A stretch of 64,000 nucleotides of DNA from positions 248,001-312,000 of the forward strand of contig NZ_JACSKH010000002.1 of the NCBI RefSeq assembly GCF_018617485.1. Reading direction: 5' to 3'. This document shows positions 24,576-36,531 of the stretch, piece by piece. Under the pieces are notes generated by a model. It had not been told where the DNA came from, searched no databases, and worked only from the letters and a program-made list of their open reading frames with translations. This stretch comes from Exiguobacterium sp. s124 (GTDB taxonomy: Bacteria; Bacillota; Bacilli; Exiguobacteriales; Exiguobacteriaceae). The position numbers and the translations under genes are program-made. The stretch's first letter is position 1, and every line of letters starts with the position of its first letter.

Positions 24576-24673
24576 CTTTTCATCTTTCGAGCAATACGCC
24601 CGCTGGATTTGGCACAGGTCCCCCGCTGCCGAGACTTCACAGGGCCAGTCCCTCCGTCTCTCTCGATAAAAAG
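24576..24673 (-). ncRNA. SAM-I (S-box) riboswitch aptamer
   Basis: On the minus strand the S-box core is clear: GAGAGAGACGGAGGGACTGG, then CCCTGTGAAGTCTCGGCAGC, then GTGCCAAATCCAGC, and GAAAGATGAAAAG closing helix P1 with CTTTTTATC (24665-24673 with 24576-24584). It binds S-adenosylmethionine and, with the terminator at 24531-24562, should switch off transcription of the NhaC-type transporter when methionine is ample. Confidence 0.95.
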
Positions 24674-26587: not shown

Positions 26588-26841
26588 CTTTTCAACCGCA
26601 TAGACGAATGTCGATGAAAAAGAGAGTAACGATGGTTTAGTCAACAAAGCGACCTAGGGATTGGTGAGAGCCTAGGCTGACAAACGTCGCGAAACGCACT
26701 TTTGAGATGCTATCCGAAACGAGAGTAGGCATAGCCGGAGGGAACCGTTATCACCATAAAGCGGTCTGCGTCATGCAGGCAAGAAGAGTGGTACCGCGGG
26801 AATTCCCGTCTCTTTGCATCTATGCAAAGGGCGTTTTTTTT
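26588..26841 (+). ncRNA. T-box leader RNA of argS
   Basis: The gap of 424 bases between the cyclase and argS is filled by promoter and T-box leader. Seen: AGAGAGTAACGATGG at the stem I base, the stem I apical motif GGTGAGAGCC, the T-box bulge GAGTGGTACCGCGGG at 26786-26800 and a terminator (CTTTGCAT / ATGCAAAG, then eight T's, 26812-26840). It should sense uncharged tRNA(Arg). A CGC at 26695-26697 in the GAAACGCAC stretch is a candidate Arg specifier codon; I could not fold stem I to prove it. Confidence 0.9.
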
Positions 26842-33449: not shown

Positions 33450-33513
33450 TGAAGTGATGATGAATGGAGAAAGAAACGGGAAGTAGATGGTTAGACAGGG
33501 AGGAGTGACGAGG

Positions 33514-35637
33514 ATGGAATGGTTAGGTAGACAGTTGGTTCGCTTTCGATATGGAGTACTACTCGTTTGGGCGATTTTACTCGCGGGGTCGGTCTATTTT
33601 GGGCTTCAGCTCCCGGGTGAGTTGAGAGGAAACGGCTTCGCCATTCAAGACGGACGGTTTCAACAAGTAGAAGATACGTTGAATGAACGGTTTGATCGTG
33701 CTGGCGCCTCGATGATCGTACTATTCGAAGGCGGAGATTTGGATACGGTCATGGACGAACAGCAAGAACAATTGGAGACGATTCGGTCGGTTGATGGCGT
33801 GATTACTCCATCCGAGAATCCAGATGCCCGTTCAGGAGACGTCGCCTATTTCGTGCTTGAGTTTGAAGACTATGAAGCGGCCGAATCTTCGATTGCTGCG
33901 GTCCGTGATGCGCTTATCACAGACACGGATACAGAAGTGCGCTTGACTGGGGAACCGGTATTTGCGGACGACCTGAATGAGGCATCGAAAAATGACTTGA
34001 TTCGGGCGGAGTTGATTGGGATTCCAGTCGCACTGGTCGTATTATTACTCGTTTTCGGAACGCCGCTCGCGGCACTCATGCCGTTGCTCGTCGGACTGAT
34101 CACGTTCATCGTAGCGGCGGGGTCTCTATTCTTTTTTGCGCAAAACATGGAATTATCCATATTCGTCTTGAACGCCGTGGCGATGATTGCCATTGCGCTC
34201 GGGATTGATTTCTCATTGCTACTCGTCAACCGCTATCGTGAAGAGTTGACGCGAGGACAATCGAGAGAAGAGGCGATCGTTCGAACTGTTGCAACGGCCG
34301 GACGTTCGATTCTCTTTTCAGGACTATGTGTATTCGTCGGGTTGGCCGGTCTACTCTTTATCCAGGTCGATGTCTTCCAGGCGGTCGCACTCGGTGCGCT
34401 TATTGCCGTCGCAGGGGCGGTTTTGTCGGCACTGACCCTCCTGCCGTCATCTCTATACTTAGTTGGGGATGCATTGAATAAAGGACGAATCATCAAGTCT
34501 GATGAGACAAAATCAGAAAGACGTTGGCAAAAACTCGCGCGTTTCGTGATGAGACGTCCTGTGACGATGACGCTCATTGCGTTATTGTTACTTCTGCCAA
34601 GTCTCTGGTTCGTTCGCGACTTGGAGTTAAATATTCCAGATGCCGACGCGCTCCCGACTTCCTATGAATCACGGGCGGCACTTGAACGCTTTGACGAAGT
34701 GTTTGGAGAAAATTCAACCGATGCCGTCATTCTGTTTGAAGCGAATGATCTGACGGATCCGATGATTTTAGAAGAACTGACAATGCTCACGGACGACTTG
34801 AACGAAGTGGACATTGTCGATAACGTCTCAACCTTTTTGACGACATCCGGTTTGACACCGGAAGCTTTCACACAACTCGTCGAGGCGGCACCAGAACAAC
34901 TCGCTCCGCTTGAACGACTTGTGACCCTTGACGGGAACTCAGATTTGGCACTCGTCAACGTGAGCTTCGATGTGCCACCGAGTGACAAGGAAGCGCAAGC
35001 GTTCGTGCGTGATTGGCGAGATCAAGGATTTGAGGTCGGTGGACCTGCTGCTTTTAACGAAGAGATTTATGATGAGATTTACGACAGCATCCCATATGCG
35101 GTGATTACGGTCATTTTGGCCACATTCTTCATCCTCATGTGGGCGTTCCGCTCCATCTTGATTCCGATTAAAGCCATTCTCATGAACGTGCTCGGCCTCG
35201 GAGCGACGTTCGGCTTACTCGTCATCATCTTCGAATCCGGTTATGTATATGACGCGGAAACAATCAGTATATTGACACCGGTCTTTATCTTCTCGCTCGT
35301 CTTCGGATTGTCGATGGACTATGAGGTATTCCTCGTTTCACGAATCGAGGAATATTACCGCGAGACAGGTGACAACGACTATGCGACAGAGATGGGACTG
35401 GCCAAAACGAGTAAAATCATCACCTCGGCCGCGATCATTATGATTGTCGTGACGGGTGCGTTCGCCTTCACGGGTGTCAGTCCGATCAAACAGCTCGGTG
35501 TCGGGATTGCCCTCGCCATTTTCATCGATGCGACGATTATCCGGATCCTGCTCGTTCCGTCACTCATGAAGCTGTTCGGGGATTGGAACTGGTGGTGGTT
35601 CGGCAAAAAGAATTTACCGAAACGTAACATGCACTAA
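33514..35637 (+). CDS. MMPL/RND-family transporter (YdfJ-like)
   Basis: Large membrane exporter of 707 residues with twelve hydrophobic segments in two 6-helix halves, each with one extracellular loop domain after its first helix. The conserved proton-relay motifs are GIDFSLLLVNRYREE in helix 4 (near 234) and GLSMDYEVFLVSRIEE in helix 10 (near 590), the GxxxDY/F form of MMPL proteins. Members move lipids, siderophores or drugs; the cargo here is unknown. ATG 33514 has GGGAGGAG upstream; the longer start at 33487 has none. No regulator adjoins it, and no terminator divides it from the next leader. Confidence 0.9.
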   Translation: MEWLGRQLVRFRYGVLLVWAILLAGSVYFGLQLPGELRGNGFAIQDGRFQQVEDTLNERFDRAGASMIVLFEGGDLDTVMDEQQEQLETIRSVDGVITPSENPDARSGDVAYFVLEFEDYEAAESSIAAVRDALITDTDTEVRLTGEPVFADDLNEASKNDLIRAELIGIPVALVVLLLVFGTPLAALMPLLVGLITFIVAAGSLFFFAQNMELSIFVLNAVAMIAIALGIDFSLLLVNRYREELTRGQSREEAIVRTVATAGRSILFSGLCVFVGLAGLLFIQVDVFQAVALGALIAVAGAVLSALTLLPSSLYLVGDALNKGRIIKSDETKSERRWQKLARFVMRRPVTMTLIALLLLLPSLWFVRDLELNIPDADALPTSYESRAALERFDEVFGENSTDAVILFEANDLTDPMILEELTMLTDDLNEVDIVDNVSTFLTTSGLTPEAFTQLVEAAPEQLAPLERLVTLDGNSDLALVNVSFDVPPSDKEAQAFVRDWRDQGFEVGGPAAFNEEIYDEIYDSIPYAVITVILATFFILMWAFRSILIPIKAILMNVLGLGATFGLLVIIFESGYVYDAETISILTPVFIFSLVFGLSMDYEVFLVSRIEEYYRETGDNDYATEMGLAKTSKIITSAAIIMIVVTGAFAFTGVSPIKQLGVGIALAIFIDATIIRILLVPSLMKLFGDWNWWWFGKKNLPKRNMH

Positions 35638-35717
35638 AGGTAAAATTCATGAACTGAATCAAAATGTGTGGTAAACTACGTACAAGATTACGCGCAATTT
35701 GAGAAAGGAAGGTCTTT

Positions 35718-35765
35718 ATGGATACCGAGAGGACGTGGCCTCTGTTCCAACTTCCGGACTTCTAG
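35718..35765 (+). CDS. Putative regulatory leader peptide before the YitT-type gene
   Basis: Fifteen codons, MDTERTWPLFQLPDF, with ribosome site AAAGGAAGG 5-6 bases upstream of ATG. The codons for Leu-Phe-Gln and Leu-Pro lie in segments (35741-35749 and 35751-35756) that pair with downstream bases (35817-35825 and 35803-35808), and a further hairpin hides the next gene's ribosome site. The layout resembles leader peptides of translational attenuators. Translation is inferred. Confidence 0.5.
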   Translation: MDTERTWPLFQLPDF

Positions 35766-35877
35766 CGTTGAATGATCACCATGACGTGTATCAATCAACA
35801 AACGGAAGATCGGAGATGGAACAGATGGAACCGCAGCTACGACTGAGGATCCTCCTCTCCGTCAAGAACGGGGAGGA
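35741..35877 (+). promoter_or_regulatory. Putative translational attenuator: alternative stems around a hidden ribosome site
   Basis: Stem A: TCTGTTCCA (35741-35749) with TGGAACAGA (35817-35825), continued by CTTCCG (35751-35756) with CGGAAG (35803-35808). Stem B: TCCTCTCCGT (35853-35862) with ACGGGGAGGA (35868-35877), which buries GGGGAGGA, the ribosome site of the gene at 35886. Alternative stem C: CGGAGATGGA (35811-35820) with TCCTCTCCG (35853-35861), bulging one T; it needs stem A open and would free the ribosome site. Confidence 0.55.
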
Positions 35878-35885
35878 CAATCGGA

Positions 35886-36518
35886 ATGAAACGAGTTGCT
35901 ACCATAGTGCTCGGAACGCTGATCATGGCGTTCGGTTATTATTATTTGAATGAACAGTTTGGTTTGGCGGAAGGTGGATTCGTCGGGTTATCGCTACTCG
36001 GTCGCTATTTATTTGATATCGACCCGGCGATCTCGATGATCGTGCTCGACATCCCATTTTTTATCATCGCATTGTGGTGGAAAGGATGGCGTTTTGTCGG
36101 ACAAGCAGTATTAGCCGCTTCGTCCCTTTCGCTCAGTTATGCGATGTGGGACCGTCTCGATTTGCTCACGTTTGAGATTCAAGTATGGCCAGCGACGTTA
36201 TTCGCTGCCATCGCGAGTGGGATTGTGACCGGGTATGGTCTCGGTCTCGTCTTGAAGTCAGGCGGAGCGACCGGAGGCGACGATTTATTCGCTCTCGGAT
36301 TGTCGAAGTGGACAGGTGTGTCGGTCGGTACGATTTTAATTATTTTTGATGTGATCGTCCTTGGGATTTCACTCATTTATTTACCATTATCGAACGCGTT
36401 GTATACGCTGATCGCGGTATCAATCGCCGGACGAGTCGTCACCAAGATGCTCGTCGTCGACGAACCGAAAGCGACACCTGTCGTACCAAATTGGACACCA
36501 AAAAACGATCTCGCGTGA
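35886..36518 (+). CDS. YitT/YczE-type integral membrane protein
   Basis: A 210-residue membrane protein with five or six hydrophobic segments. It has the repeated Gly-rich blocks of the YitT membrane domain: GLAEGGFVGLSLLGRYLF near residue 25 and KSGGATGGDDLFALGLS near 120. The C-terminal DUF2179 domain of full-length YitT proteins is missing, so length resembles the YczE branch. Function unknown. The ribosome site GGGGAGGA lies 8 bases upstream but is paired in a hairpin; a leader peptide precedes it. The stop lies in the terminator. Confidence 0.82.
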   Translation: MKRVATIVLGTLIMAFGYYYLNEQFGLAEGGFVGLSLLGRYLFDIDPAISMIVLDIPFFIIALWWKGWRFVGQAVLAASSLSLSYAMWDRLDLLTFEIQVWPATLFAAIASGIVTGYGLGLVLKSGGATGGDDLFALGLSKWTGVSVGTILIIFDVIVLGISLIYLPLSNALYTLIAVSIAGRVVTKMLVVDEPKATPVVPNWTPKNDLA

Positions 36519-36531
36519 GGTCGTTTTTTTT
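36502..36531 (+). terminator. Intrinsic terminator
   Basis: AAAACGATCTC pairs with GAGGTCGTTTT (one G-U) followed by a T-run. Confidence 0.88.

Follow-up and report, generated by a model that had tools for sequence, protein, structure and literature searches.

We found that a yitT-type membrane protein gene, located in a 64,000-nucleotide stretch of Exiguobacterium DNA (referred to here as ‘the window’), is preceded by a conserved leader that probably works as a two-step translational attenuator (our own probability for this reading is about 0.58). In the off state of this proposed device, a first stem (stem 1), formed by codons 9–15 of a short leader ORF (uORF1) and RNA further downstream, would hide the ribosome site and start codon of a second reading frame (uORF2), while a second hairpin (hairpin 2) would cover the ribosome site of yitT. 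In the on state, stem 1 would be held open by a ribosome halted, or slow to terminate, towards the end of uORF1, and we infer that this arrest would be brought about by the conserved nascent peptide MDTERxxxLFxLPDF in combination with a signal that acts on it. Initiation on uORF2 would follow, the ribosomes translating it would meet hairpin 2 and open it, and the yitT ribosome site would thereby be exposed, with yitT translated by coupling to uORF2. A sequence-only reading of the same DNA had already proposed a leader-peptide attenuator of the YitT gene with erm/cat-like logic; the attenuator is well supported (the peptide, the stems and the linkage to the gene are all conserved), whereas the erm/cat-like swap of pairings found no support at equilibrium.

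In the window, an MMPL exporter gene (33487–35637) is followed by the leader and then by the yitT-type gene (35886–36518, forward strand, 210 aa), whose assignment, initially made from the sequence alone, was borne out by a profile match to PF02588 (YitT_membrane, E 1.5e-36). The yitT gene was found in 19/19 genomes of the window’s genus and 19/19 genomes of its sister genus, and the uORF1 leader in 38/38 Exiguobacteriaceae genomes (a single copy in each) and 0/361 other Bacilli sampled; none of the 38 genomes kept yitT while losing the leader ORF or the stems, a loss that would have spoken against the proposal. No match to the leader was found on plasmids or viral contigs, and we set aside a mobile origin. 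The placement of the leader between the MMPL and YitT genes holds in the window’s genus, but in the two sister-genus loci that we read MMPL is replaced by a divergent FAD-dependent oxidoreductase-like gene, and MMPL adjacency therefore falls outside the conserved unit, which consists of the leader and yitT with a promoter-like element of their own; we accordingly rejected the leader as part of an MMPL operon. The promoter-like element is an extended −10-like sequence read by eye (TGGTAAACT, 35669–35677, forward strand), and the transcript predicted from it would begin just 5′ of the leader. TGTGnTAAA(C/A)T is kept at this element in most of 15 aligned window-genus loci, and GGTTATAATG occupies a similar place in sister-genus loci; a consensus promoter scan did not flag the element at 35669–35677. 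A terminator scan found no G+C-rich hairpin with a U run in the leader (what comes after hairpin 2 is CAATCGGAATG), and the leader matched no Rfam family at either the gathering or a relaxed threshold. A likely intrinsic terminator, AACGATCTCGCGTGAGGTCGTTTTTTTT, seen by eye at 36499–36530 and missing from the scan list, overlaps the end of yitT. Elsewhere, the window carries an ordinary T-box leader (26605–26816, forward strand, RF00230, 129 bits) and an ordinary SAM riboswitch (24577–24672, reverse strand, RF00162, 80.6 bits).

The 15-codon ORF noticed from the sequence is present at 35718–35765 (forward strand; uORF1, MDTERTWPLFQLPDF, UAG stop) and does have a good ribosome site, AAGGAAGG (35705–35712, forward strand), which is invariant across the window’s genus and gives way to AAGGGTGG in most of the sister genus. 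Its conservation, which the sequence-only reading had left to an alignment of related genomes, extends to 38/38 genomes, in every one of which uORF1 has 15 codons followed by UAG and reads MDTER(T/I/A)xxLFxLPDF. When codon changes over the 38 genomes were counted on a tree inferred from the remainder of yitT, 24 proved synonymous and 11 nonsynonymous (expected synonymous fraction 0.244, p = 4e-8), as against synonymous:nonsynonymous counts of 6:31 and 4:33 in the other two frames of the region. All of the nonsynonymous changes fall in codons 6, 7, 8 and 11, and the remaining codons, which make up the core MDTER...LF.LPDF-stop, show a ratio of 18:0. Judged by this pattern of substitution, the uORF1 peptide is under purifying selection, and the pattern speaks strongly for a peptide that is produced and whose sequence is important; a bias from RNA pairing might favour transitions, yet the third positions should not then stand out so strongly. 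A short leader ORF with a ribosome site and an apparently selected peptide is what an erm/cat-type leader has, and the locus resembles such leaders to that extent. Within the leader, codons 3–5 (ACCGAGAGG, 35724–35732) show 0 synonymous changes in the 38 genomes, and codons 2, 9, 10 and 12–15 vary synonymously; the GAGAGG of codons 3–5 is complementary to the CCUCUC of hairpin 2, and the two may form a further RNA contact.

The fold of the leader is much more stable than expected by chance: its minimum free energy is −75.1 kcal/mol, whereas shuffled sequences average −54.4 (z −4.72) and 0/200 of them did as well. Two sister-genus leader loci compared with shuffled sequence gave z −7.56 and −5.83. 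In the computed fold, the 5′ side of stem 1 (35742–35763, forward strand) comprises leader codons 9–15 and the first base of the stop codon, and its 3′ side (35804–35824, forward strand) holds the uORF2 ribosome site and abuts or covers the uORF2 start codon. The initially noticed pairing of 35741–35749 with 35817–35825 is present in both the sequence and the computed fold, and a continuation of this stem exists as well, but in a slightly different register (35754–35757 with 35810–35813 and 35759–35763 with 35804–35808, not 35751–35756 with 35803–35808). Stem 1 is capped by an apical hairpin (35767–35799, forward strand) made of GTTGA/TCAAC and a variable helix, which takes two different forms within the window’s genus and is paired in both. 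Hairpin 2 (35853–35877, forward strand) is likewise as first described, a 10-bp stem of 35853–35862 with 35868–35877 that buries GGGGAGGA and with it the yitT ribosome site GGGGAGG (35870–35876, forward strand), and it is folded in both genera. The uninduced stem over the gene’s ribosome site that erm/cat-type control calls for is thus there, and the predicted accessibility of the site is 0.00–0.01 in both genera.

Both predicted stems are conserved across the genera, as far as alignment and folding can tell. The sister genus can be aligned base by base in a few blocks only, and its predicted fold has the same two elements. The sequence-only reading had looked to compensatory changes in the stems, and some were found in both stem 1 and hairpin 2, although in-register compensation is limited; few columns covary, since the majority of pairs do not vary within either genus. 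Pair 35744/35822, which includes the third base of the Leu9 codon, is G-C in one genus and A-U in the other. Within the window’s genus two apical pairs of stem 1 changed on both sides, and within the sister genus three pairs are compensated, among them one that involves the third base of the Phe15 codon (U-A to C-G) and one in hairpin 2 of a single locus, L078 (C-G to G-C). Hairpin 2 is rebuilt from different sequence in the sister genus. Codons 13–15 come in a uracil-rich or a cytosine-rich version, and peptide and pairing are kept in either: CCGGACUUCU in one genus and CCUGAUUUUUA in the other both encode Pro-Asp-Phe-stop, and each pairs with its own 3′ side with the register shifted by one. 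This is a clean case of the same third codon positions serving a peptide and a stem together.

Beyond the features that had been described before, we found a second reading frame, uORF2 (45 codons from 35816 or 42 from 35825, ending at 35953, forward strand; MEPQLRLRILLSVKNGEDNRNETSCYHSARNADHGVRLLLFE), which overlaps yitT by 68 nt in a different frame. Its ribosome site is CGGAG (35811–35815, forward strand, in a segment also able to pair with 35856–35861) or GGGAGAG, followed by AUG, and in both genera it is paired with leader codons. Start and stop are in frame in 38/38 genomes, with the end placed alike in all of them, and the start lies 61 or 64 nt from yitT (the window’s genus has an earlier in-frame AUG, 70 nt from yitT), so the length of uORF2 changes in threes. 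Indels in the apical loop do not come in threes, and total leader spacing ranges over 115–128 nt; note that the in-threes argument amounts to about three events (about 1/27 by chance). In 38/38 genomes the uORF2 stop is supplied by the same yitT codons, TTG AAT GAA. Synonymous diversity in yitT codons 2–22 is 0.03 vs. 0.35 in the rest of the gene (window’s genus) and 0.23 vs. 0.41 (sister genus), a dip deeper than in four neighbouring control genes; low synonymous diversity at a gene’s start is partly general, as some reduction is seen in MMPL and the YwiC gene too.

The uORF2 peptide showed no conservation in the sister genus (1 synonymous:24 nonsynonymous), and the absence of stops from its frame was not significant (P about 0.35), for which reason we set aside the lack of stops as a sign of selection. 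The case for translation of uORF2 is consequently one from position, and we infer on that footing that uORF2 is translated; we read the combination as meaning that its translation would matter and its product would not. In the window’s genus uORF2 reads (Q/R)LRLR (window 35837–35848), and RLR is a macrolide +X+ arrest motif, placed where a ribosome stalled with codon 7 in the P site would open hairpin 2. The motif occurs in the window’s genus, is RIK in part of the sister genus and is absent elsewhere in it, and we therefore claim no arrest motif in uORF2. Part of the sister genus (L060 and relatives) also has a 10-codon ORF, MAYKNQGERK, about 97 nt before yitT, whose TAG stands directly before the uORF2 ATG; we rejected it as a part of the system, an indel cutting it to MA in the rest of that genus.

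What a ribosome on the leader would do to this fold was computed by folding each of the 38 sequences with the RNA removed up to the ribosome’s front edge, a thermodynamic treatment that ignores kinetics. With a ribosome on uORF1 codons 8–15, mean accessibility of the uORF2 ribosome site rose from 0.11 to about 0.35–0.58 in the window’s genus and from 0.29 to about 0.5–0.61 in the sister genus. A ribosome at the end of uORF1 raised mean accessibility of the uORF2 AUG from 0.01 to 0.41 in the sister genus; in the window’s genus this AUG is roughly half accessible even in ribosome-free RNA. The uORF2 start region is thus predicted to be hidden by uORF1 codons and freed by a ribosome, as a two-leader arrangement would have it, with the AUG of the window’s genus conforming in part. 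With a ribosome anywhere on uORF1, the yitT ribosome site stayed at 0.00–0.01 and hairpin 2 about 98–100% formed (genus means, 38 sequences). A ribosome on uORF2, from codon 5–6 onward, opened the yitT site to about 0.3–0.65; at codons 6–10 it was 0.34–0.59 accessible in the five sequences tested, and in the window sequence 0.34–0.49, vs. 0.00 with the RNA free or with a ribosome on uORF1. Because the uORF1 ribosome exposes the start region of uORF2, and not that of yitT, a relay through uORF2 fits better.

These computations bear most directly on the single-leader swap of the erm/cat type, in which a stall on uORF1 would open stem 1, 35811–35820 would pair with 35853–35861 and yitT would be freed directly, uORF2 being incidental. 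The alternative pairing is, as the sequence-only reading held, possible (9 bp and one bulged base), and it could form in every representative examined; it is the best fold for RNA that ends before the yitT ribosome site, and could thus act kinetically before that site is transcribed, and the unconserved uORF2 peptide also speaks for this explanation. Once the site has been made, however, hairpin 2 wins: with a ribosome on uORF1 the alternative pairing reached a few per cent at most on average (0.15 once), and direct freeing of the yitT site, the step on which erm/cat-type control depends, was seen in no sequence at equilibrium. The same computation does capture switching in a control, the ermC leader (pE194 sequence), whose start region opens with the ribosome at codon 9 and largely recloses at the leader’s end, as expected from the known ermC system. 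Complementarity between 35811–35820 and 35853–35861 is moreover to be expected anyway, because the uORF2 and yitT sites are both Shine-Dalgarno sequences, and the swap does not account for an AUG that follows the uORF2 site at a constant position and in a constant frame. We consider it unlikely, while keeping its kinetic form in mind.

The same anatomy would also serve a constitutive cascade of reinitiation and coupling, in which ribosomes, having translated uORF1 to its end, would start again on uORF2 and open hairpin 2 with no arrest and no inducer, the peptide affects only the efficiency of termination or reinitiation, and output tracks general translation activity. The UAG stop of uORF1 in 38/38 genomes and a uORF2 start region about 45–60 nt downstream of uORF1 would suit this scheme; it leaves unexplained why the amino acids of LF.LPDF are kept despite synonymous codon change, and under it stem 1 would remain open only briefly once termination had occurred, so that we think it improbable. 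Direct sensing of a ligand or a protein by the RNA (an unrecognised riboswitch or protein-binding leader, with uORF1 and uORF2 as by-products) would account for the strong fold and for invariant stretches in unpaired RNA, but the failure to match Rfam at both thresholds and the synonymous-only change in the leader core, which argues for a translated peptide, make it highly improbable. The two-step attenuator, with its arrest on uORF1 and relay through uORF2, is the reading that we prefer.

For the YitT protein, neither the sequence nor the predicted fold (mean pLDDT 82) led to a PDB relative, and function from fold was dropped for want of a significant PDB match. In Mycoplasma pneumoniae selected with macrolides, several mutations appeared, YitT missense variants among them (PMC10240068), which is no more than a weak lead. 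The window’s genome has seven further YitT-type paralogues (L002–L008, about 24–38% identity), and among these YitT-type genes the MDTER leader precedes only the gene at 35886. uORF1 adds a conserved, selected leader peptide tied to YitT, a widespread membrane family, and the cause of any ribosome arrest on LFxLPDF is likely to be connected with whatever YitT deals with or defends against. Tentatively, and with the odds against it, we suggest that MDTERxxxLFxLPDF-UAG may represent a novel class of arrest peptide, one that responds to a cue other than an antibiotic, perhaps while the ribosome terminates at the invariant UAG, and that the overlapping ORF may pass this signal on and serve solely to bring in a ribosome that unwinds the stem over yitT. 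On that reading, nascent-peptide control would extend to a membrane family not previously known to be linked to it.

Our search of the literature found no description of YitT with leader-peptide control or of Exiguobacterium leader peptides, and the comparison is accordingly with systems that control other genes. In the replication genes of IncFII and IncI plasmids (tap-repA, repY-repZ), a stem over the next gene’s ribosome site is opened when ribosomes translate a leader ORF, as we propose for uORF2; those genes differ in being controlled by antisense RNA and in having a leader that ends at the gene start. erm(C) shares with the yitT leader a leader peptide (ErmCL) encoded 5′ of a stem that hides the gene’s start region, with leader codons that form stems, but in our computation a ribosome at codon 9 opens up the ermC start region, while no ribosome position on uORF1 exposes the yitT ribosome site. 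At toiL-topAI of Escherichia coli, on which several antibiotic classes act, a stalled uORF ribosome refolds the RNA over the next gene’s ribosome site (PMC12121999). The likeness lies in a uORF whose stalled ribosome alters the downstream fold; unlike the yitT leader, toiL-topAI has a single uORF, a different gene and Rho-dependent termination downstream, and no sequence relation between the two is known. In erm(B) a second leader, ErmBL2, was found later and is needed for induction (PMC8274638), which recalls uORF2 in the presence of a second leader ORF; ErmBL2, however, overlaps ErmBL rather than the gene, and its amino acids matter. The nearest logic is that of erm(A), where one proposed model has a ribosome arrested on ErmAL1 switch on ErmAL2, on which a second arrest switches on the gene, although the interplay of ErmAL1 and ErmAL2 is still described as unclear (PMC8274638). 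Both leaders place two successive short ORFs before the gene; the erm(A) product is a 23S rRNA methylase, whereas the gene here encodes a YitT-type membrane protein and is not a resistance gene in that sense, and the second ORF here, unlike a conserved, arresting ErmAL2-type peptide, overlaps its gene by 68 nt and encodes an unconserved one.
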